A stretch of 25,676 bases of DNA from a virus (IMGVR_UViG_3300041809_000311:1-25676), one strand, 5' to 3'. Counted from the stretch's first letter, positions 8,012 to 22,313 are shown. Numbers and translations are program-made. The notes: generated by a model from the letters alone, not told the origin.

Positions 8012-8743
8012 TCAATCGCCGAGCCAATTTAACCTAATATGATTCTGATCCTGGACCGCGCCTTCGTACAAGATGATGTCACGATCCGCCTGCACGATCT
8101 GCGCCTGTATATCAGTTATCATAGCAGGTAGCTTGTCCTTGGGAACGGTGATGTCCAGTGCGCCCTTCAGGCTCGCCAGTGTCATGGTCAACTGATCCTT
8201 GCGCGTGACCAGCTCTTGCTGGCGCCCGACCAGCTCCGCCGTCCTGGCCTCAACCTTGTGCGCCATCGGATGAGGCTTGCCGAAACCATAGAGCTTGCCA
8301 GGCATGAAGACTTCCGCCTCTGGCGGCCCACTTACCGCGATCCCTCTCAATAGCGCGGTCTGGACGAAGAACCGGCAGCCGGGCCGCTGAAACTTGTATT
8401 CTGTTGCGTCTGCGAGATCGACGCCATAAAGGCCTATTTCCTCGGGATTTTCCTCCAACGCCATCGCCAGCATGAAGGAGATGGTCGAGGTAAAGAACCA
8501 TGTCCCGTACTTCGCCAGCATGGCTTTGAGGGGATAATTTGTCTGTGTGAACACAGGTTTGTCCTGGCTTGTGAGCCAGGCACGATGGTCCGGGTGACTA
8601 TCGATTATCGCGTCTTCATGGAGATCAAACCAGCGGTCCCAGCGCGGCAGACCAGGCACATTACAACCCCAGATTTCCCAGGATGGATCACCGAACGGCG
8701 CCTTGACGCAGTGCGCCGCCGAACCGACAACCGCGATCTTCAC
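8012..8743 (-). CDS. conserved-looking Rossmann-like phage protein with C-terminal coiled coil (243 aa)
   Basis: I place the start at the GTG at 8743, which overlaps the upstream TGA (GTGA) as most junctions here do; a longer frame reaches an ATG at 8782. The protein then begins MKIAVVGSA, a typical first strand and glycine turn of a nucleotide-binding fold. Other marks are WEIWGCNVPG, WFDLHED, TSTISFMLAMALEE, and IGLYGVDLADATEYKFQRPG. The last 75 residues form a coiled coil with few prolines. The LYGVD and QRPG strings resemble a family of phage hypotheticals related to MptE/DUF115-type proteins, but this is recollection. A nucleotide-sugar or pterin-like ligand is possible; the activity is unknown. 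Confidence 0.72.
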   Translation of the reverse strand: MKIAVVGSAAHCVKAPFGDPSWEIWGCNVPGLPRWDRWFDLHEDAIIDSHPDHRAWLTSQDKPVFTQTNYPLKAMLAKYGTWFFTSTISFMLAMALEENPEEIGLYGVDLADATEYKFQRPGCRFFVQTALLRGIAVSGPPEAEVFMPGKLYGFGKPHPMAHKVEARTAELVGRQQELVTRKDQLTMTLASLKGALDITVPKDKLPAMITDIQAQIVQADRDIILYEGAVQDQNHIRLNWLGD

Positions 8744-9180
8744 GTGCTGGTGAGAGGCCCGGCTACGCTGATCAGTGCCCATTGGCTCGTACTGACGGCG
8801 CTAAGAGTGCCAGCCGGTCGGTTCTTTGCAGCCGTGGTCGAGGCGAAAGTCAACTTCGTCTTCGCCTTGTCGAAAGTGCCTGTAACGATGGCTTTCACAG
8901 TGGAAGCACAAAACAGATTGACTACTTGGCCGACCTGGGCCGCCGTGGGATTGGCGATGGCATATCTGCCCGTGGTGCCCGCCGTTCTGGTCGTGCTGTT
9001 TAGGATCACAGTGCCGGAAGTCGGAAGATTGCCGGTTGTGCTGCCGACGCTCACCACGCCGACGATAGGGGTGGAACCAGTCACATAGCCATTGATGGCG
9101 TTAATAACCTGGTTGAGCAGGTTGTCGAGCTGTGAGGGGTCCTGCGGACCCGTGAAAGTCGCAATCGTGGTGCCGGCCAT
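8740..9180 (-). CDS. small virion protein candidate (146 aa)
   Basis: The 146-residue product starts at an ATG with GAGGGGG upstream. A helix (SQLDNLLNQVINAINGYV) leads into a Thr/Ser/Gly/Val-rich region that should be mostly beta (GTVILNSTTRTAGTTGRYAIANP, shown here in part). There is no signal peptide or membrane helix. Composition and place just after the tailspike gene suggest a fibre-tip, baseplate-like or head-decoration protein. I do not recognise a family. It is translationally coupled to the next gene by GTGA. Confidence 0.6.
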   Translation of the reverse strand: MAGTTIATFTGPQDPSQLDNLLNQVINAINGYVTGSTPIVGVVSVGSTTGNLPTSGTVILNSTTRTAGTTGRYAIANPTAAQVGQVVNLFCASTVKAIVTGTFDKAKTKLTFASTTAAKNRPAGTLSAVSTSQWALISVAGPLTST

Positions 9181-9238: not shown

Positions 9239-11032
9239 CTACTGTCCGTTGCAGTTGTAATTGTAAGCCACTGAATTGGTGCCGCCTGACAAAGTAATCG
9301 TAAACGCGGTTTTGCTCTGGGCTGAAATATAGGCCGTGATGCCTCCTGCCGCCGAATTAGCTGGAGCGATGGTACACCATGCCGAACTTGGATAGGCGAT
9401 ATTAAAGGTCACCGTGCAGGCCGTCGGGCTGGATGTACCAAAGGTCACTACCCCGCCTGTGTCAGTGCCGGAAACGCTAGGAGACGCTCCGCACGACGTT
9501 AGGCCTGGTGCCGAACTGCTATTAAGAAGGCCTGCGTCAATGGTTACGTGCGGACTGCCGTGAGGAACGCAGATATTGTTGTAGGAATTATTGCCGATTA
9601 CCGCGTCGCATGTTGCTCCGTTGCCTTCGACAATAGCTCCGTTTGTGGCAGTGCCTCCAAAAGCCCCCTGGCCGGATCCAGGTGTTGGAATTGATCCGGC
9701 TCCGACAAAACTGGGCGCGAAAATTCCGGGGCAGGTGGCGGAAGCTCCCATCCCGGTGTTCATGTATTCCAGCAATCCTGCCGACCGATATGCAGTACCG
9801 CAGCCAGCGTTGTTAGTCAGGGCACCGTTGAGCACGTCGGCGTGCAAAAGCACGCTGGCGCCGCTATCGAACGTCCCGGTCCCATCCACCAGACTGTCGT
9901 GTTCGACTAGCGTTCCATTTCCGGTCACATGATAGGCAACGGAGCTGAAGTGCGAATTGTCGTGGGCGAACAGAGATCCATAAGTTACTTCAAAATCAGT
10001 TCCACTCGCCGCCTCGAAATAACTGTCGTAGACGATATTGGGGCCGTAGCCTCCAGAACTCCCAGTAACATCGTTGATAATTCCGTGGGTTCCTCCGTAG
10101 GACTGGATTCCGTCTACACTGTTGACTGCCGCACCGCCTTCGAAATCCACCGCTGCCGTGGCCGGGTTGAAGGTTCGTCCGCCACCGATATAAACGCCAT
10201 TGGAAGAAACATGCGCGCCGCCGCCTTGAACGCAATCATTGAGATAGATGCCAGTGCCCGAGCCAATATCGTAGCCGCCGACGATGCGGCCCTGCTGTGC
10301 GCCGGAACCGTAAATCCCTTTGGTAAGGGTCTGAGAACCGCTGTTGATACTGACGGTATCGACACCGTAGGCGGCAACGCCATTGAGCCAAATGCCGTAG
10401 GCTTCGGCGCCGGAACCGCCGCCCTCGATGGAAAAGTTCGACAAAAAGGCCTTGTCGATAGCCAGCCCGCAGGTTCCGATAACCTCAAGGCCGCCTGACG
10501 AGTTTTCAAAAATCAGGCGCGATTTCGGGCCAGTGCCATAAATCCTGAGTGGTCCGGCAGACGATAGTGTGTAACTAAGGTTTGAGGCGATCACACACCC
10601 AAGAGGTGCGGCAGGTATGAACAAGGCGCTGCCCGCCGTTGCTCCGCCGCCTGTGGCCGTCAAGGCATAGGAAAAAGCCGTGGAATCATCAGTAGAGCCA
10701 TCACATTTAGCCCCGAACATCTGAGGCGTGAGATAACCAGGTAATTGCCTAAGCCATCGCCCCGTTGACACACCCGTGGCGGCAAAGATGGTGCCATGAT
10801 CTGCTGTCGCAGTAGATGCGGCGCTCCATGTGAACAGACCGCCGCCACCATCCCCGGCTGCGGCCAATCCTTGGACGGTCACAACAGCATTTACATATTG
10901 GCTACTTGCCGCACCGAGCCCAACGAGACCGCCCGTTCCAGTAATGCTCGGAAAGGTCCGCGTGGTATTCGGCCCCTGCGCCGCAGCAGCAAGAGGCCAT
11001 AGGAGAGCTAAAAGAAAGAGAAGTTTGCGCAT
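9239..11032 (-). CDS. tailspike, pectate-lyase-like beta-helix, with Sec signal peptide (597 aa)
   Basis: The first 18-19 residues form a Sec signal peptide: charged MRKLL, a Leu/Ala core, and AAA-Q before the mature GPNTTR. An N-terminal adaptor follows, with AAAGDGGGGLFTWS and GRWLRQLPGYLTPQMFGAKCDGSTDD (about 56-116, quoted in part). This is the usual lead-in to a phage pectate-lyase-3/tailspike beta-helix, and residues 120-480 show the repeating short strands and Asn/Gly/Ser turns of such a helix. The last 110 residues form a separate beta domain with several Cys. Such proteins bind or cut surface polysaccharide; no catalytic set can be named. The ATG overlaps the upstream stop (ATGA). 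A signal peptide on a virion protein is unexpected. Confidence 0.82.
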   Translation of the reverse strand: MRKLLFLLALLWPLAAAAQGPNTTRTFPSITGTGGLVGLGAASSQYVNAVVTVQGLAAAGDGGGGLFTWSAASTATADHGTIFAATGVSTGRWLRQLPGYLTPQMFGAKCDGSTDDSTAFSYALTATGGGATAGSALFIPAAPLGCVIASNLSYTLSSAGPLRIYGTGPKSRLIFENSSGGLEVIGTCGLAIDKAFLSNFSIEGGGSGAEAYGIWLNGVAAYGVDTVSINSGSQTLTKGIYGSGAQQGRIVGGYDIGSGTGIYLNDCVQGGGAHVSSNGVYIGGGRTFNPATAAVDFEGGAAVNSVDGIQSYGGTHGIINDVTGSSGGYGPNIVYDSYFEAASGTDFEVTYGSLFAHDNSHFSSVAYHVTGNGTLVEHDSLVDGTGTFDSGASVLLHADVLNGALTNNAGCGTAYRSAGLLEYMNTGMGASATCPGIFAPSFVGAGSIPTPGSGQGAFGGTATNGAIVEGNGATCDAVIGNNSYNNICVPHGSPHVTIDAGLLNSSSAPGLTSCGASPSVSGTDTGGVVTFGTSSPTACTVTFNIAYPSSAWCTIAPANSAAGGITAYISAQSKTAFTITLSGGTNSVAYNYNCNGQ

Positions 11033-11382
11033 CAGTGGTAGATCACCGTGAGATCATGCGCCGCCGTTCCAGTTACGATAGTCAATCCAGTACGGAACGC
11101 GATGTCGTGCATCACACAATTGGGCGCCTGCGAGGTGACAGTGGCTGTTTCGGTGATTGTGCCAATCAAGGTGCCGGAACCGGCTGTATTGTCGTAAACC
11201 GCGACCGTGCCGGAGACGCCGTACTTGTTAATGCAAATCTCATGCAGCACACCCTGGCCCGTCATCACGACGGTGGTAGCATCAGTCGTGATATTCAGGT
11301 AGCTAAAACCGCCATCATCCAAGCCGTTGGCCCAGCAAGGCGCAACCGACAAAACCAAAAGAATTAGCGCGCGTTTAAGCAT
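11032..11382 (-). CDS. small secreted-type tail protein (116 aa) with signal peptide
   Basis: MLKR, a hydrophobic core (ALILLVLSVAP) and CWA-NG give a clear Sec signal peptide cleaved after residue 18. The mature 98 residues look like a small beta-sandwich (FSYLNITTDATTVVMTG, then GTVAVYDNTAGSGTLIGTI in separate strands), with two Cys (ICIN and NCVM) that could pair after export. The ATG has a strong AGGGGGC upstream, nine bases after the preceding stop. Its stop overlaps the tailspike start. Similar small beta proteins accompany phage spikes, but I cannot name a family. A periplasmic chaperone or cap for the spike is an alternative. Confidence 0.68.
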   Translation of the reverse strand: MLKRALILLVLSVAPCWANGLDDGGFSYLNITTDATTVVMTGQGVLHEICINKYGVSGTVAVYDNTAGSGTLIGTITETATVTSQAPNCVMHDIAFRTGLTIVTGTAAHDLTVIYH

Positions 11383-11391
11383 GGTCGCCCC

Positions 11392-12117
11392 CTATCGGAC
11401 ATAAGTATTACTGCCGTCGTTGAACATTACCGCAGATTGGCAGAACCCGGAAACCACAGGCGCGGTCAACCGGAATATCTCATTGGTTCCATCGGTCAGA
11501 ATCACGGCGTTGTAGGACGCGTCCACTTTGGTGATAACCAATTCTCCAGCGGCAACATTCGGCGGATAAGCAATGGTCTGATTTCCGGCGGTAGATCCGG
11601 CTTTGATGGTGTGAAGTCCCATTGTGCTGCTGACGGTAAAGTTCGTGGTGCGGCGGGTCACGGCAAGCGCTTGGAGCGCCGTAATATCCGCATTGACGCC
11701 CTTTGCCGCCCGAGCGGCTGCGGCGCCTGCTGGGTCAAATGCCGTGGTTGATGCCGTGGCGGCGGATTTCAGACCAAGATTGTAACGGGCAGAACTGGCG
11801 CTGACCAAATCGGCCAGGTTCTGAGATTTCTGCAGGGAAGTGGCCAATACCGCAGCCGCAGCTCCGGCGGCGTCAAAGGCCGTGGTGGACCGGGTAGCCG
11901 CAGAACCAAGGCCAAGGTTGGTGCGTGACGTGCCGGCGTTTCCTACATCGCTAAGATTGTTGGCGGCATAGAGCACCCCGACCGGGATGGTCGATGAATA
12001 CTGGATGGTATTGATATAGGTGATCAGGGCATTAATCAGCTCGGTCAACAATCCGACATCCTGCGGCGCCGAAAGCAGCGGGTAGGGTGTGGGAAAGTTG
12101 AGCGGCGTATTGGTCAC
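11392..12117 (-). CDS. tail fibre protein with tandem LSDV/NLGL repeats (241 aa)
   Basis: An open frame extends to 12456, but its Arg-rich N-terminus is the shadow of the overlapping upstream gene. The GTG at 12117 overlaps that gene's TGA (GTGA) and begins MTNTPLNFPTPYPLL. Helical residues 20-40 precede two tandem copies of a 46-residue repeat, NNLSDV...SRTNLGLGSAA...TTAFDAAGAAAA and NLADLV...ARYNLGLKSAA...TTAFDPAGAAAA (54-88 and 100-134). A C-terminal beta region follows. NLSDV/NLGL repeats are common in trimeric phage tail fibres. Unlike its neighbours on both sides it lacks a signal peptide. Confidence 0.72.
   Translation of the reverse strand: MTNTPLNFPTPYPLLSAPQDVGLLTELINALITYINTIQYSSTIPVGVLYAANNLSDVGNAGTSRTNLGLGSAATRSTTAFDAAGAAAAVLATSLQKSQNLADLVSASSARYNLGLKSAATASTTAFDPAGAAAARAAKGVNADITALQALAVTRRTTNFTVSSTMGLHTIKAGSTAGNQTIAYPPNVAAGELVITKVDASYNAVILTDGTNEIFRLTAPVVSGFCQSAVMFNDGSNTYVR
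11716..11958 (-). repeat. two tandem fibre repeats (NLSDV-NLGL type), 46-residue period
   Basis: Copy 1 covers 11854-11958 and copy 2 covers 11716-11820, both in the 241-aa fibre gene. Shared residues are N-L-[SA]-D, S-[RA]-x-x-N-L-G-L, S-A-A-T, S-T-T-A-F-D-x-A-G-A-A-A-A. The next gene upstream (12114-13082) has one further copy of the first half at residues 64-84, so the motif has spread across two genes. Confidence 0.7.
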
Positions 12118-13082
12118 TGCACCCACTCGAAAATGACACGACCATTTGCGCCGGAACCGCCAGCATATCCACCGCTGGCCGCCGCCGCTCCGCCGCCGCC
12201 GGCTCCGCCTAGCCCAGCCGAACCAGCAGAATCGGCGGAGGTCTGATACGATCCACCACCGCTGCCGGCAGGATTGGAACCCCCGGCCCCGGAACCGTAA
12301 AGACCGATACCGAGGCCGCCAGCCTGGGCGCCGTACGGATTGGAACCAACCAAAGTAAGGCCCGAAGTAGAGGCCGTAACGGCACACGTGCCGAGCCCGC
12401 CGCCGTAAGCAGATCCTGTGCTTACCTGACCCTGACCGCCTGTGCCGCCGCCGCATGTCATGATGGTTGCAGAATTGGGCGCCTGCACGCTGCTGGTGTT
12501 GCCGTTCCCCCCGGTGCCTCCAGCACTACTGCCAGCAGATCCGCCACTGCCGATAGTGACGGCTAAGGTATTGGTTGCCACCGGACCGGAAAACCATCCT
12601 ACGGCATAGCCACCGGAACCACCCCCGCCGCCTGCCACATTGGTGCCGTCCGCCCCGCCACCGCCCCCACCTCCGCCAATAACAGTGATCTTGAATACCG
12701 TGGAACTGGTAATGGATGCCGGTACTGTAAAAGTGCCGGTGGTAAGAAATACCTGGGCGTGAAGCGAACTCTTGGAGTAGAGATTACCCGCGCCGTCATC
12801 GACAACGTTGTTTCCAAGGCCTTCGACTGCCGCTGTGCCGAGACCAAGATTGATGCGGGAACTGGAAGCCGAATTGACATCCGAAAGATTGTTCGCGGCC
12901 CCTAATAGGTTTGTGTTGGCGCAGACCAGGATGTTTTGGAAGTTGGAATTAACCTGGTTTGCGTCAGCCGTTTGGCCGTTGACAAACGTATAGGGATAGC
13001 TTGAACAATTGGCGGCATGGGCTTCATCCCAACCACAGCAACCAAGAAGCAGAACAAACGCGGCGATGATATATTTGGTCAT
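12114..13082 (-). CDS. glycine-rich tail fibre/adhesin with signal peptide (322 aa)
   Basis: Residues 1-23 form a signal peptide (MTKY, a hydrophobic core with two Cys, DEAHA-A). The mature part begins with TFVNGQTADANQVNSNF, a motif frequent in phage fibre N-termini. It is followed by NNLSDVNSASSSRINLGLG (64-82), as in the next gene. From about residue 110 to the end there is a Gly-rich domain: FTVPASITSSTVFKITVIGG starts a strand, then runs of Gly broken by Ser, Asn and Ala. This resembles phage glycine-rich adhesin domains that pack as polyglycine helices and bind receptors. A second protein of this type is encoded at 20525-21316. The ATG overlaps the nozzle stop. Confidence 0.75.
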   Translation of the reverse strand: MTKYIIAAFVLLLGCCGWDEAHAANCSSYPYTFVNGQTADANQVNSNFQNILVCANTNLLGAANNLSDVNSASSSRINLGLGTAAVEGLGNNVVDDGAGNLYSKSSLHAQVFLTTGTFTVPASITSSTVFKITVIGGGGGGGGADGTNVAGGGGGSGGYAVGWFSGPVATNTLAVTIGSGGSAGSSAGGTGGNGNTSSVQAPNSATIMTCGGGTGGQGQVSTGSAYGGGLGTCAVTASTSGLTLVGSNPYGAQAGGLGIGLYGSGAGGSNPAGSGGGSYQTSADSAGSAGLGGAGGGGAAAASGGYAGGSGANGRVIFEWVQ

Positions 13083-15199
13083 ATCGCGGCCCCCAATACG
13101 TTAAGAAGATAGCCCAATGGCTGGTACTTCATATAAAGATTTCCGATGGCAAAGCTGGCCTGTGAAGCTCCCACGACCAGAATTGAACCCTGCTTGAAGA
13201 TAATGGGCGTGGTCCAGGGAATGTTATATTCCCGCAAGTAGCCAACGATGCCACCCCAGACCGCAGCGCCCCAATCGGAGCTGCCCCAAATCATGGGCGA
13301 ACTTCCAGGGCCGCTCAGTTGGATCTGATTAAGTGTCGTTCCGATCTCATTGATAAAGGAAATGCCAATGGATTGGCCGCCAGGAAGGGATAGGGTTATC
13401 GCCGTCTGGCCCATGCGGTTTTGCGACATTTCCTGATTGTCGGGCAGCAACACCGTCTGATAGGCCCACGACAATAGGCTGCCGTTTTCCACATAGACAT
13501 CACTAGACAACGGATTAACACCGGACAGCCACAGTTTGTTACTGATGCCCGCGCCCACCAGCAAAAAGCCATGTCCCGTGTCGGCCCCGGTTGCAGCCTG
13601 ATAAGACTGGATCAAGGCGGCAGGAAAAGTATGGGGTCCTGTCCAAATCTTCAGATTAAAATCCAGCCAGTATTCCTGATAAGGCTCTCCGACCGCCACA
13701 CTGTTCTGGCAACTAATCCGCAAGACATTCTGGTTGAACCCTGCTGTCATGCGTGTCGGATAGAGCGCGTTGATGAAAGGCACGGAAACACCGTTCCCGT
13801 TAGCTCCAATGGGATCACTGACATGGGCGGAAAAATCAATGATGCGGAGGCCGTCCGGCGCGACAAAGGCAAGACCCAACGGTGTCGGTACGATGGTGTT
13901 TGGCGCCAGACAACCAACGGACACATCCAGCGCATTGGGCGACAGATTGCTGGTGGCCTGATCGCCAGTGATCTGCCACATGGCTTCGTCGCCCTTGAAC
14001 ACAATCAGGGCCTGGATGATGCCGCCAGTGGTGATGTTGTTGAGCGGCAGGCCGGCGGATGCTGTAACCGGCGTGCTATCTCCGAAGGTCAAGGCCTGGG
14101 TGGCATAGCTGATATTCAGCGGCAGAAGCGAATCGGAGAAGTATTCGAGGTTATTGACGGCATACCAGGCTCGTCCGTTGTAATTCGAGACCCAAGTCGG
14201 AACAGCCGGAAGCGGCGTTACATTGCTATTTCCGGCGCCCCAGACCGGGGCGGCGAAGGTGCCTCCTGTAATGGTCAGGGCCAGCAGGTTTGTGTTGGCC
14301 GTGGCGTTCTTGGACATGGTGATGGTGCCGCCACCGGAGACATTGATGGCTACCCCAGAGGCACCCGAGGTTGCCGACAGAGAAAGTGTGATCGAGGTGC
14401 CACCGCCAGGAAGCGCCGTAATATAAGTTCCGGCCTGAATACCGGAACCACTGACATACATTCCGACCTGCATCAGCGCCACAGCGGCAGCCGGGATGCT
14501 GTCCACAGTGGTGCTGCTATGAGTCGTGCCCGTGGTGTTAATGTCCGTGGTGCCGTTGGTTACCGATTCCACCACGGTGTTCGACGGTATTCCCGTGCCG
14601 CTAATGGCCTGTCCGGGCTGCACGCCGTCCAATATCGGCGCCGATGAACCGTCGCCGCTGATGGACTGGATGACATTGGAACCGCTGGAGATATTGCCGA
14701 CCAGCGTGTTCAGCGAAAATCCGGTAAGGTCTATCCAGCCGAAGTAAGGATCGGAACCGCCTGCGAAGCCGGGATGAGTAACGATGATCCGGTTCGCCAC
14801 CATTTCCATGTGCGGCGGCGTCCAGTCCCCGCTGGTGGATTGCGTGGCTGGCGTGTTCGCGCTGGTGATGTTGGAGATGGAAACAAAGGCAGCCGCCGAC
14901 AGATCGTAGCAAAACGGAACATCGACATCCGAAGGACTAGAGGTCGGGATCATCCCGTAAGCCCTGGTTCCGATCACCAGGAGTGCTGTCGGCAAGCCAG
15001 GGCTGGAAATGCCCGACGTGCTGAAATCTGTTTCCAACGTCGAGGCGGGGCGGGGGACAAAAAGGCCGGTGGTGGATTCGGACGGCACCAGGTTGGACAA
15101 CTGTACCATCGCACCTGGGAAGGTATTGGTCCCATCCGCCGAATCCGACAGCCCCTTGGGCTTGACGGTGATCGGCCTTTGATTACGGCGGGAGGACAT
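13079..15199 (-). CDS. tail nozzle / tail tubular protein B-like (706 aa)
   Basis: The 706-residue protein starts MSSRRNQRPITVKPKGLSD and contains a long all-beta body. Features are typical of podovirus nozzle proteins (T7 gp12, P22 gp10 type): FPGAMVQLSNLVPSE near the N-terminus, repeated beta blades, WYAVNNLEYFSDS, VFKGDEAMWQITGD, LAFVAPDGLRIID, and a C-terminal WGSSDWGAAVWGG segment. A Gly/Thr/Ser-rich insertion at roughly 170-310 has Ig-like strands. It directly follows the adaptor gene, as expected for a stack of adaptor then nozzle. It should form the distal tube that anchors the fibres. Assignment rests on fold pattern and position. Confidence 0.78.
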   Translation of the reverse strand: MSSRRNQRPITVKPKGLSDSADGTNTFPGAMVQLSNLVPSESTTGLFVPRPASTLETDFSTSGISSPGLPTALLVIGTRAYGMIPTSSPSDVDVPFCYDLSAAAFVSISNITSANTPATQSTSGDWTPPHMEMVANRIIVTHPGFAGGSDPYFGWIDLTGFSLNTLVGNISSGSNVIQSISGDGSSAPILDGVQPGQAISGTGIPSNTVVESVTNGTTDINTTGTTHSSTTVDSIPAAAVALMQVGMYVSGSGIQAGTYITALPGGGTSITLSLSATSGASGVAINVSGGGTITMSKNATANTNLLALTITGGTFAAPVWGAGNSNVTPLPAVPTWVSNYNGRAWYAVNNLEYFSDSLLPLNISYATQALTFGDSTPVTASAGLPLNNITTGGIIQALIVFKGDEAMWQITGDQATSNLSPNALDVSVGCLAPNTIVPTPLGLAFVAPDGLRIIDFSAHVSDPIGANGNGVSVPFINALYPTRMTAGFNQNVLRISCQNSVAVGEPYQEYWLDFNLKIWTGPHTFPAALIQSYQAATGADTGHGFLLVGAGISNKLWLSGVNPLSSDVYVENGSLLSWAYQTVLLPDNQEMSQNRMGQTAITLSLPGGQSIGISFINEIGTTLNQIQLSGPGSSPMIWGSSDWGAAVWGGIVGYLREYNIPWTTPIIFKQGSILVVGASQASFAIGNLYMKYQPLGYLLNVLGAAI

Positions 15200-17762: not shown

Positions 17763-19115
17763 TCAGCCAAATGTGCTTGTGTAGGCGGAAACGCTCTCGA
17801 TCCGTGACATGAACATCACGTTAGTCAAGATGGTTCCGTAAAAAGCCTTCCACCCAACCACTCTTAATTGATTCAAGGGGTCTGATTTATCGGCATCCTT
17901 CAGGTACGTAAATTTCACGTTGTCCAGCACCACCTGGCCGTAGGCCCCGCGCCCGATGACAAAGGTCGGATAGACCGTCAGGCCGCTGCCGGGAATGGCC
18001 GGAGGCGTCTGGGCAATGCCAAGGCCGGTAATCGTGACCGTGGTATTGGAAGGCAACTGCGTGGCCTGCCCCTGAAGCGGGCCAACGGTAGGTCCAGCGG
18101 TGCAAAGGCCAAGCGTGGCCGGGCTGGTCGTGGTCCCCACATAGACGTTCCAGGTAAAGCCGGAGACGTTCGGCGTGGTAACGTTGATCGAGCCGTTCGG
18201 GCCGGTGACGCTGATCGCGGCTGACACTGCCGTGATATAGGATTCGTACTGGTTCTGTGTGTCCTGGCCGGTAACGATGATGTAATAATTGGTAGGAGAA
18301 CCGGCCAGATTGCCGGATGTGCCGGCGGTGCCGGTAAGCTGGGAATAGGCTGTCCACGACGGCACCATGTTGGTCTTGCAGAACCGGATACCGGACCATT
18401 CGCCCGCCTCATAATTATAGAGGCGGTTCAGGTCGCTGTAGGTCCAAGCATTGATGACCGTGGGGTTCTGCCGGAAGTCCGCCACCACCAGGGTATGAAT
18501 CAGCGCGGCGTAGTGCGGCATGGCCCTGGGATTATCGGACGCGCGCGAACCACCGGATTGCGCCTCGATCTTGGTATCGGTCTGCTCGTCGCCCATGAAG
18601 CGCGGAGCGCCAAGGGTTTCCAGCGCCGCATCGGTGCGGATGACGGTCTGGGTGTCCAGCACATCGCCGGCAACCAGCGCGCCGCGCGAGCCGCGGCTGT
18701 TAACATAGTTGACCTGCGGAGAACCCAGGAGGGCCAGGAAGGTATTGCGTTCGAGGGTTTCCGCGATCTGCAGACCCGTCAGCTCGGTCGCCTTCTTGAA
18801 CAGCGGATGCTTGATGGTCAGTTCCGCCACATCGGTGATGGTGACCTTATCGCCCCACTGCTGAAGCTGGGCCGTGACCTGCTGGATGGTCATGGTCTCG
18901 CCAATCGGAGGCACGCCCTCCGACAGCGGCGCATAGGGAAGCGGGATGCGGTTATACCGCGTTGCGGTATAGGTGGTGCCACGGCCCTTGGGCAGCGTCA
19001 GCGGGTCGCCAAACTGGTAGGCCACAAGCTGGCGGCGGGTGAGAGGAAGCGTCTCATCCGCGATATAGTTTTCAATGTCTTCCTGGAACTGTGAAGATTG
19101 ATTAGGGCCAGCCAT
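17763..19115 (-). CDS. major capsid protein, N4-gp56 family (450 aa)
   Basis: The 450-residue protein has the N4-gp56-type capsid pattern: LPKGRGTTYTATRYNRIPL (41-59), EGVPPIGETMTIQQVTAQLQQWGDKVTITD (66-95, key parts GETMT and WGDKVTITD), HPLFKKATELTGLQIAETLERN (103-124), and a C-terminal VGWKAFYGTILTNVMFMSRIES block (420-441). Members use the HK97-like fold and form the head shell. An extra domain at residues 258-372 (DNA 18000-18344) has an Ig/FN3-like strand pattern (NYYIIVTGQD, SGFTWNVYVGTT, TTVTITGLG), probably exposed on the surface. The start has GGAGAG upstream, within a perfect hairpin. The order scaffold then capsid is typical. Confidence 0.88.
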   Translation of the reverse strand: MAGPNQSSQFQEDIENYIADETLPLTRRQLVAYQFGDPLTLPKGRGTTYTATRYNRIPLPYAPLSEGVPPIGETMTIQQVTAQLQQWGDKVTITDVAELTIKHPLFKKATELTGLQIAETLERNTFLALLGSPQVNYVNSRGSRGALVAGDVLDTQTVIRTDAALETLGAPRFMGDEQTDTKIEAQSGGSRASDNPRAMPHYAALIHTLVVADFRQNPTVINAWTYSDLNRLYNYEAGEWSGIRFCKTNMVPSWTAYSQLTGTAGTSGNLAGSPTNYYIIVTGQDTQNQYESYITAVSAAISVTGPNGSINVTTPNVSGFTWNVYVGTTTSPATLGLCTAGPTVGPLQGQATQLPSNTTVTITGLGIAQTPPAIPGSGLTVYPTFVIGRGAYGQVVLDNVKFTYLKDADKSDPLNQLRVVGWKAFYGTILTNVMFMSRIESVSAYTSTFG

Positions 19116-20322: not shown

Positions 20323-20525
20323 GGTTTATATCCACCACGATAATTTGGATTGTGAGCCGCGTCGTATTTATGCTGCTCTGTCCTATCGAGCCCGCCCGGT
20401 CCCATGTCTTGAGACATCGCCACAGGATAAGCCTTTTCGATCTTTCTCAAATGCGAGCCCGCTAAAAAGCAAACTGGCGGTGCGATGATGGCCCATGCGA
20501 TCAGAATTTCCAGCCATACATGCAT
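20319..20525 (-). CDS. small one-helix membrane protein (68 aa)
   Basis: The 68-residue product has one N-terminal hydrophobic helix (WLEILIAWAIIAPPVCFLAG) and a charged, flexible cytoplasmic or periplasmic tail (HLRKIEKAYP, then HKYDAAHNPNYRGGYKP). The ATG overlaps the TGA of the glycine-rich gene (ATGA). Its TAA overlaps that of the convergent plus-strand gene. The topology fits a small holin-like or tail-associated membrane protein, but family and function are not recognised. Confidence 0.65.
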   Translation of the reverse strand: MHVWLEILIAWAIIAPPVCFLAGSHLRKIEKAYPVAMSQDMGPGGLDRTEQHKYDAAHNPNYRGGYKP

Positions 20526-21316
20526 CAGCCAACTCCCATCATCATCAGTGTAGCATTTTTCGCTGTCGGCCCAGGACCGCTTGTGAAATTCAGAACGATA
20601 ATGCCCTTGGCGCCAGAACCAGCCGTAGAGGGATGATAAAAATTTCCCCCTCCACCACCCCCGTACAAGCCACCATTGCCGCCGTTGTAGAACCCAGAAT
20701 GATAGGAGCCACCACCGCCGCCACCGCCCGCGCCCTTGCTTGAGCCGAAGCTACTACCGGCGCCCCCTTGCTGTCCCGCTTGCGTAGCGCCTCCGCGCGA
20801 GCCCATTTTTCCGGCGCCCGCTGGCGTGCTTCCGGTATCGCCAGCGCCGCCCACGCCGTTTCCGTAAGATGCTGAAGAACCATTGCCCCCCGCACCCTCT
20901 GGTCCACCAGCGCCGCCACCGCCGCCCGGGATACCGGCAACGCCGGCGGTACAGCCATTACCGCCATTATAATTTCCTGCCGCTCCCGTTCCACCGCTGC
21001 CGCCCAGGCTGTAGTTCGAATAGCGATATTTGGAGCCCTTAGCCAAAAGGGTGGAAGTGTTCTTGAAATAGCTGTCACCACCGCTTTGGGTCGGATTATT
21101 TGTACTACCAGTACCTCCCTTGCCGACCGCATAACTGTAAGCGTTTCCCGCCGTGACGGAGAGATTTGTTATCTTGCGCCATTCGCCGCCGCCGCCGCTG
21201 CGCCCCGCGTTTCCGCCGCTACCGCCGCCAATGGCTTGCACAGATGTTAGCGTCGTGACCCCGGCAGGAATCGTGTAGGACGTTCCCGAGGTCGAAACCA
21301 GGAAGACCGTGGTCAC
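20525..21316 (-). CDS. glycine-rich adhesin/receptor-binding protein (263 aa)
   Basis: The protein starts at a GTG overlapping the upstream TGA (GTGA). Residues 1-40 form beta strands (TVFLVSTSGTSYTIPAGVTTL, in part). Then about 200 residues are dominated by Gly with Asn, Ser, Ala and Tyr (GGGGGAGGPEG, GAGGGGGGGSY), before a final strand GIIVLNFTSGPGP. This is the plan of phage glycine-rich tail-tip domains that stack as polyglycine helices and set host specificity. The first 40 residues resemble the beginning of the Gly-rich half of the 322-aa fibre (FTVPA...V.VIGG). It has no signal peptide, unlike that protein. Confidence 0.72.
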   Translation of the reverse strand: MTTVFLVSTSGTSYTIPAGVTTLTSVQAIGGGSGGNAGRSGGGGEWRKITNLSVTAGNAYSYAVGKGGTGSTNNPTQSGGDSYFKNTSTLLAKGSKYRYSNYSLGGSGGTGAAGNYNGGNGCTAGVAGIPGGGGGAGGPEGAGGNGSSASYGNGVGGAGDTGSTPAGAGKMGSRGGATQAGQQGGAGSSFGSSKGAGGGGGGGSYHSGFYNGGNGGLYGGGGGGNFYHPSTAGSGAKGIIVLNFTSGPGPTAKNATLMMMGVG

Positions 21317-21525
21317 AGAATTTGGCCTTTGCCGATGTGCTTGACCATTTCACGCGCTGGATGGAACGGATAATCCTCCAGTGGAAATGCCTCCATCACC
21401 TCATGCGGCTTCAGAACTTCCTTGGCGCGGTAGAGGTGAGAGTGGTCTGGATCATCGGATGTGTCGATAAGACGATAGATTTCCTTAGTGTCCCGATGAT
21501 AAACGATGGCGAATAGCTTACTCAT
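21313..21525 (-). CDS. hypothetical protein (70 aa)
   Basis: The 70-residue product (MSKLFAIVYHRDTKEIYRLI and EVLKPHEVMEAFPLEDYPFH, with a hydrophilic middle) is neither secreted nor membranous. It is coupled to both neighbours: its ATG overlaps the sulfotransferase TGA, and its own TGA overlaps the GTG of the glycine-rich gene. It may be a small accessory of the tail module. No family is recognised. Confidence 0.62.
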   Translation of the reverse strand: MSKLFAIVYHRDTKEIYRLIDTSDDPDHSHLYRAKEVLKPHEVMEAFPLEDYPFHPAREMVKHIGKGQIL

Positions 21526-22313
21526 GCCGCCACCAGTTTGAGCGGGTTCCTCCAGAATTGATCATTTACATAGCTTGCGAATAGATTATCCGGCAGGATC
21601 GTTTCGCGCGGCGTCCAGCGCACAGCGCCATTCACATCATGCAATCCGCGAGCCCCGATGTTGCGGTCGAACTCCGAGGCGCTGTATTCCACATGATCGA
21701 AATCATGCGCGAATTTCGGCTCTCCGATGAAGTCATAAATCCGGGCCACCGCGGCATCCGGCGACTTGCACAGATGCTCATATTCCACCAGCAAAACCTT
21801 GTCCTTCTGCTCGCCGGACAAAGCCTCGCGCAAGCCATCCAGCGCAAACCCGACGACACCACCCGAGCCTGAGACAATCGCCGCCCGGCTATAGATTGTT
21901 GTGTCTGTCGAATAGTTATAGACACCACTCGGCTCAAAGGCGTTGCGGCGGTAAAGCCGCTCGAAACTGTCTATGATCCATGACAGATCACGCACACAGC
22001 AGATAATTTTAGCTTCCGGGAACAGCTTGGAAAGCGCGGTCAGGCGGTGGGTCCAGAATCGGCTTGTGTCGAATACGATCCCGGACCTATCCTTGTAATA
22101 ACCGTGAAACACGCCACGCAGGATTTCGATGCGCTGGTCATCGGTTATCCAGACAGCATTTTCGTTCCTGCGGGCCATCGCCGATTCCATCGCGGAATAA
22201 AGCGAGGAAACCGGCGAGGTCATCCCAGCGGTGATTTCAGGGTTCTGCCGCAGGATCGCGCCCAGCAGGGTCGAGCCGGAACGCGGCAGTCCCGATATGA
22301 AATGCAGCCGCAT
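21522..22313 (-). CDS. PAPS-dependent sulfotransferase family protein (263 aa)
   Basis: The 5'-phosphosulfate loop is clear at the N-terminus: FISGLPRSGSTLLGAIL (5-21). The 3'-phosphate site follows the family spacing, with CVRD at 106-109 giving Arg108 and Ser116 eight residues on (WIIDSF). A later VLLVEYEHLCKSPDAAVARI (173-192) is also typical. Such enzymes transfer sulfate from PAPS to sugars, lipids or tyrosine. Full length (263 aa) with no signal peptide or membrane helix, so it acts in the cytoplasm. It sits among tail genes and is coupled to the next gene by ATGA. Targets could be a tail protein, a host glycan or a host metabolite; the sequence does not say. Confidence 0.85.
   Translation of the reverse strand: MRLHFISGLPRSGSTLLGAILRQNPEITAGMTSPVSSLYSAMESAMARRNENAVWITDDQRIEILRGVFHGYYKDRSGIVFDTSRFWTHRLTALSKLFPEAKIICCVRDLSWIIDSFERLYRRNAFEPSGVYNYSTDTTIYSRAAIVSGSGGVVGFALDGLREALSGEQKDKVLLVEYEHLCKSPDAAVARIYDFIGEPKFAHDFDHVEYSASEFDRNIGARGLHDVNGAVRWTPRETILPDNLFASYVNDQFWRNPLKLVAA

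Follow-up and report, generated by a model that had tools for sequence, protein, structure and literature searches.

Sec leaders on tail fibre and spike genes of uncultured podophages

The fibres and spikes of some podophages may be made as Sec precursors, oxidised in the periplasm and joined to the virions at lysis, a reading to which we assign a probability of about 0.52. Export of the leadered fibres is well supported by sequence comparison; cleavage by signal peptidase I, trimerisation in the periplasm and joining to virions at lysis are steps that we infer. The window is the whole stretch analysed, one IMG/VR virus record of 25,676 nucleotides that represents a partial genome.

The structural genes of the window lie on the minus strand (Table 1): the capsid gene, several small genes, genes for a 246-aa and a 706-aa protein, and then the fibre and spike genes in the order 322-aa fibre, 241-aa fibre, 116-aa protein and 597-aa spike. 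An AlphaFold2 model of the 706-aa protein (alignment A2, mean pLDDT 82) has its best Foldseek matches (E 3e-13 to 1e-6) among the nozzle chains of podophage tail complexes, namely those of Pa223, E1004, T7, SU10, phiM1, P22 and Sf6. Judged from this model the protein is a podophage tail nozzle of the T7-like kind, and its gene, directly upstream of the leadered 322-aa fibre gene, was used as the anchor of the genomic slot.

Table 1. Features of the window and bacterial loci with the same N-terminal domain (a slash marks the predicted cleavage site)
Feature	Position	Strand	Basis or remark
N4-gp56 family major capsid protein	17763..19115	-	NCBIfam TIGR04387, E 8.5e-40
706-aa predicted tail nozzle (T7 gp12 / P22 gp10 fold)	13079..15199	-	AlphaFold2 and Foldseek
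322-aa leadered tail fibre	12114..13082	-	PHROG tail-fibre families (phrog_863, E 3e-25), Pfam Gly_rich_2
Sec leader of 322-aa fibre, residues 1-23, AHA/ANC	13014..13082	-	detector score 5.31
Mature N-terminal domain of 322-aa fibre, residues 24-58, Cys26 and Cys54	12909..13013	-	
241-aa leaderless fibre	11392..12117	-	phrog_2282 tail fibre, E 9e-13; stem matches 322-aa stem
116-aa exported protein (predicted), two mature Cys	11032..11382	-	leader score 4.71
Sec leader of 116-aa protein, residues 1-18, CWA/N (alternative ANG/L)	11329..11382	-	score 4.71
597-aa leadered tailspike/depolymerase-like protein, GDGGGG motif, 12 mature Cys	9239..11032	-	
Sec leader of 597-aa protein, residues 1-18, AAA/Q	10979..11032	-	score 5.42
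146-aa leaderless protein, TGPQDPSQ family	8740..9180	-	relatives found mostly leadered
Bacterial tandem arrays	L198 (G001:C10:147299-150567), L151:5695-8000, L166:2-1887, L264:3742-7837		

Leaders and gene families in the window

The sequence-only reading had claimed that three of the four consecutive fibre and spike genes carry Sec leaders and that the 241-aa fibre does not, and this is confirmed at the level of sequence. The 322-aa protein begins with MTKYIIAAFVLLLGCCGWDEAHA/ANC, the 116-aa protein with MLKRALILLVLSVAPCWA/N (or cut at ANG/L) and the 597-aa protein with MRKLLFLLALLWPLAAAA/QG, each with the basic n-region, hydrophobic core and AxA-type site of a predicted Sec and signal peptidase I substrate, whereas the 241-aa protein begins with MTNTPLNFPTPYPLLSAPQDVG and has no leader. 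Leaders were called with a crude rule-based detector rather than SignalP, and a few by eye (L066, L099, L127, L151 and L313). The detector requires K or R in the n-region, a core of 8 residues that averages 1.8 or more on the Kyte-Doolittle scale, and a site of AxA type; its cut is 4.0. Its background is 8 of 404 genes (2.0%) outside the fibre cluster of related phages, on either side of the nozzle, and at that rate three leadered genes in four would arise by chance with P = 3e-5. The one other gene flagged in the window scores 3.34, under the cut. Downstream of the nozzle in related contigs the rate is 33% for the first gene, 25% for the second and 4% for the third.

The start codons in the window look right: that of the 322-aa gene shares the letters ATGA with the nozzle stop, the ATG of the 597-aa gene shares TGATG with the 116-aa stop, and the 322- and 597-aa genes have no second in-frame start within their first 44 codons. 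As to a lipobox like that of Llp and Cor, LLGC is present in the 322-aa leader; the relatives align at AxA and, by eye, mostly have no Cys there.

Downstream of its leader the 322-aa fibre consists of an N-terminal domain, starting ANCSSYPYTFVNGQTADANQVNSNFQNILVC, an NNLSD/NLGLG stem and a glycine-rich C-terminal domain. The stem is common to the 241-aa fibre, for which a longer 354-aa reading frame is merely a 5' extension into the 322-aa gene. A leaderless protein elsewhere in the window (20525-21316) has a Gly_rich_2 C-terminal domain like that of the 322-aa fibre, and at 21522-22313 a sulfotransferase-like sequence, FISGLPRSGSTLLGAILRQNPEIT, was noted by eye among the phage genes.

The 597-aa protein is tailspike/depolymerase-like by family match, in that residues 50-167 match the EPS depolymerase family phrog_4250 (E 1e-9). 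It also matches the particle-associated glycoside hydrolase 6c72 at E 0.007, several of its tblastn matches in phages carry a tail spike annotation, and Pfam gave no beta-helix match. Family and structure searches with the 116-aa protein gave no match. Orthologues of the 116-, 597- and 706-aa proteins were not found in viral contigs, where single-protein searches reach close relatives only, so the leaders of the 116- and 597-aa proteins are judged from their sequence and context alone. The comparison of leaders among orthologues suggested by the sequence-only reading thus succeeded for the 322-aa slot, where both forms were found, and found nothing to compare for the other two.

Leadered and leaderless fibres in one slot

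Relatives were collected from contigs of uncultured viruses with a degenerate DNA pattern for ADAxQVxxNF, which finds the N-terminal domain of about 40 aa, and in a second scan with a DNA pattern for the nozzle motif WxGPHTFP only, which is unbiased toward the fibre domain; each gave at least 120 matches. A first search had recovered chiefly the common NNLSD stem and was left out of the leader test. Among the cultured phages of INPHARED, neither the nozzle nor the domain had a match. The domain is predicted to form an extended stretch that leads into a helix (block pLDDT 85-97, mature residues 1-30), and its three Foldseek matches, none of them significant, are all podophage tail structures.

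The domain occurs in a leaderless form, M-AIIGTLPVTLQNGTV-ADANQV, and in a leadered form, MIQ...VQA/QIIGTLPYTLTNGQV-ADANQV. As judged from such sequences, the leader is an exact prefix of about 20 codons, ending in AxA, before an otherwise identical domain, so that cleavage would leave the same N-terminus as in the leaderless fibres, which begin at the domain itself. Both forms occupy the same slot: among the matches listed, the nozzle is the direct upstream neighbour of 31 of 44 leadered and 28 of 49 leaderless domain genes, and the nozzle-anchored scan gave a leadered gene next to the nozzle in about 51 of 84 cases, near-copies counted. Among the matches listed, 48 of 60 leadered relatives have AxA 15 residues ahead of the ADAxQV motif, a spacing that the choice of cleavage site weakly favoured, and 23 of 37 leaderless proteins have the start Met at that distance from it. 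All 60 leadered relatives have K or R at positions 2-6, with Ala at -1 in 58 and at -3 in 51, again among the matches listed. Wrong start calls are rejected, given that the nozzle stop lies about 44-57 nt from the motif in leaderless genes against about 95-113 nt in leadered ones and that the start codons abut the nozzle stop. A leader in the following genes goes with a leadered first fibre (23 of 36 against 5 of 38, p 9e-6).

The two forms also differ in cysteine content. In the window the mature 322-, 116- and 597-aa proteins have 4, 2 and 12 Cys and the 241-aa fibre has one; the cysteines of the 116- and 597-aa proteins had been pointed out before, and the pair Cys26/Cys54 in the 322-aa domain had been missed. 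Among the matches listed, 93 non-redundant domain proteins were compared, and an N-terminal Cys pair is present in 28 of 44 leadered proteins but in none of 49 leaderless ones (Fisher 9e-13, ancestry ignored). The pair is placed at -12/-13 with +15 or at -15 with +20, and none of the 44 leadered proteins listed has just one of the two Cys. Exported proteins of Gram-negative bacteria prefer even numbers of Cys (PMC7678975). Whole mature leadered fibres, among the matches listed, have an even number in 45 and an odd number in 9 cases (p 7e-7), against 11 even and 18 odd in whole leaderless fibres. After clustering at 50% identity the even to odd ratio is 33:7 for leadered and 9:16 for leaderless fibres (Fisher 2e-4), and single linkage at 30% leaves 8 leadered clusters, six even, one odd and one without Cys (binomial p 0.13). 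These patterns suggest that the leadered fibres are oxidised and folded outside the cytoplasm. Some members of a second leadered fibre family, encoded by the gene after the first fibre, also have an N-terminal Cys pair, for example NCAEASQLLPCLN (L082, L303 and L356).

In a tree of 122 nozzle rows, which does not tell gain from loss, the leader label needs 16 changes, at least 14 of them on starred branches; the fibres themselves recombine. Single ancestry of leader and Cys pair is rejected on this tree. Of 14 independent pairs with one leadered and one leaderless member, about 8 show the Cys pair following the leader and none shows the opposite (median p 0.008). For instance, the leadered L338 (GVPCSVPF...ILTCL) and the leaderless L355 (SVSYTPPF...ITTSL) have nozzles that are 79% identical, and leader and both Cys change together; the leadered L060 and the leaderless L085 are 62% identical in the nozzle and 78% in the N-terminal part of the fibre. 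L143 and L362 each combine a leadered copy that bears Cys with a leaderless copy that lacks the pair. The leader is, by these sequence comparisons, a recurrent and repeatedly evolved trait in uncultured podophages, that of the window included.

Leaders, equivalence of the slot and signatures of oxidation are thus supported by comparative data, and the earlier claim of export into oxidising conditions gains support from beyond the window, through orthologues that share the slot and a Cys pair and Cys parity that track the leader. Orthologues that start downstream of the leader, which the sequence-only reading had named as evidence against itself, gave a mixed outcome: there are many of them, yet it is they that lack the Cys pair, and they therefore strengthen the case for export.

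Fibre families and bacterial homologues

The leadered proteins belong by sequence family to the podophage tail fibres. Phage Tail Collar is found in 20 of 55 leadered relatives, alongside the S74 chaperone and many PHROG tail families, and the stem after the domain (NSDITSLxGLTTPLSxxQGGT) matches solved virion fibres, the putative tail fibre of SU10 (7z47, E 2e-5) and phiM1 gp47 (8vbx, E 2e-4). Podophage fibres on T7-type nozzles likewise have their gene after the nozzle, and Collar and S74 domains occur here too; the present fibres add a Sec leader and a Cys pattern of periplasmic type. The phiM1 fibre has 263 residues ahead of the matching region, whereas those described here begin directly at the domain of about 40 aa.

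Leaders are almost confined to fibre and spike genes, and they also precede unrelated fibre and spike N-termini, such as the FPDNTTGAITPANLR family, the TGPQDPSQ family, a pectate-lyase-like spike (L396:10030-11382) and S74-chaperone proteins in related records. Record G668 (45.9 kb) has four leadered proteins of 402, 574, 732 and 886 aa in the fibre and spike region, while the scan of its other genes showed no fibre without a leader, and no integrase was found. Further leadered small proteins were seen near capsid genes in related records (L386:17716-18429 and L392:10894-11445). In the record of L128 a 482-aa phage protein (L392:8717-10165) combines a domain of glycoside hydrolase family 18 (E 4e-37) with a leader of twin-arginine-like type, MTLSRRRFLLG, which suggests Tat export of a chitinase-like enzyme.

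Secreted proteins that share the N-terminal domain of these fibres, most of them with paired Cys, are encoded in tandem arrays on bacterial chromosomes (Rhizobium rhizogenes, Sphingosinicella and others). Of these genomes three were searched for the nozzle gene, those of L198, L151 and L166, and none gave it; there was also no convincing match in about 960 sampled bacterial genomes; Alphaproteobacteria, the class of Formivibrio and Acidobacteriota gave weak partial matches only. Because genomes in which no nozzle was found encode secreted homologues, the exported form can work without a virion, and the arrays are possibly cellular surface fibres.

From the periplasm to the virion

In the proposed route the leadered fibres and spikes would be made as Sec precursors, and signal peptidase I would remove about 20 residues, so that the chains begin with the sequence that follows the start Met in the leaderless relatives. 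Once processed, they would fold and form disulfides in the periplasm, while virions are built in the cytoplasm up to the nozzle. At lysis the two would meet, and the virions would bind the fibres through the common N-terminal domain, at the nozzle or adaptor.

The main rival, distinctly less probable than this route, accepts export but places the leadered proteins in the host envelope. Their role there would be superinfection exclusion by receptor masking, removal of capsule in which progeny could be trapped, or some other remodelling of the surface, with leaderless fibres serving the virion. It has precedents in T5 Llp, a periplasmic lipoprotein for superinfection exclusion encoded beside the receptor-binding protein (PMC9586334), and in lambda Lom, an outer-membrane protein encoded between spike and fibre genes (PMC12309495). 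Leaderless fibre-like genes adjoin the leadered ones in the window, where the 241- and 146-aa proteins could be the virion fibres, and bacteria hold secreted homologues outside prophages. The virion reading is nevertheless favoured because leadered and leaderless forms alternate in one slot with one mature N-terminus and because G668 has no recognised leaderless fibre. The leadered proteins also bear Collar, S74 and virion-fibre stem sequences, and an integrase was found in 3 of 20 related records searched; that 17 have none may speak against lysogenic conversion.

The precedents themselves differ from the present proteins. Llp and Cor of T5 are likewise exported proteins encoded beside a receptor-binding gene, and Llp has a disulfide (PMC9586334), but they are small lipoproteins, whereas the proteins here are mostly of fibre size with fibre domains, and the leaders of the relatives are type I-like. 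Lom shares a signal-peptide gene within the tail-fibre region (PMC12309495) but is a beta-barrel expressed in lysogeny, unlike the fibre-domain proteins of records that mostly have no integrase.

The other explanations are less probable still. A leader that is used and left uncleaved, as an inner-membrane tether until lysis or for late release, would have a parallel in the signal-anchor-release and signal-peptide endolysins, with which tailed phages use Sec for delayed activity (PMC6116005), but seems improbable given the strong conservation of AxA and of its spacing to the domain, which fits cleavage. Non-functional leaders, such as remnants captured from host secreted proteins, would agree with the secreted bacterial homologues and with the fast divergence of leader sequences; the features are kept while the sequence changes, however, and Cys pair and Cys parity track the leader, so that this explanation is very improbable. 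Some phage genes, among them those for holins, have dual starts, and a leadered gene might in the same way give two products, one exported and one that begins at the mature domain and stays in the cytoplasm for the virion. This is the least credible explanation and is largely excluded by the scarcity of in-frame starts: at the mature N-terminus almost no leadered gene has one preceded by a ribosome-binding-like site, and the 322- and 597-aa genes of the window have none in their first 44 codons.

Tailed-phage virions are normally assembled in the cytoplasm, and filamentous phages assemble at the membrane. Their pIII, a virion adhesin with a cleaved signal peptide and disulfides, resembles the leadered fibres in these features and differs in its assembly at the membrane. 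A published description of a Sec-exported tail fibre of a tailed phage was not found among the open-access papers searched. Tailed phages use host Sec for Llp (PMC9586334), Lom (PMC12309495) and endolysins such as Lys44 of fOg44 (PMC6116005); the last are lysis enzymes, unlike the fibre- and spike-like proteins described here. The sequence-only reading had offered three outcomes, in which the proteins join released particles, pass through a membrane-tethered intermediate or have a separate role in the envelope; it is partly supported overall, with assembly at lysis favoured.

It is an even chance that a large group of uncultured podophages makes its receptor-binding fibres outside the cytoplasm, as Sec-exported and disulfide-bonded proteins added to virions at lysis, by a route often gained or lost as about 20 codons came or went ahead of a fibre that otherwise stayed unchanged. 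Tailed phages are assumed to complete their virions in the cytoplasm, and if the fibres are periplasmic, part of assembly moves to lysis. Fibres could then have disulfides, and the cell envelope could be a target for free fibres or depolymerases ahead of release. In annotation, the leaders on such fibres should then be kept and the genes not be taken for host genes. The sister pairs with and without a leader are natural material in which the route can be tested with single constructs.
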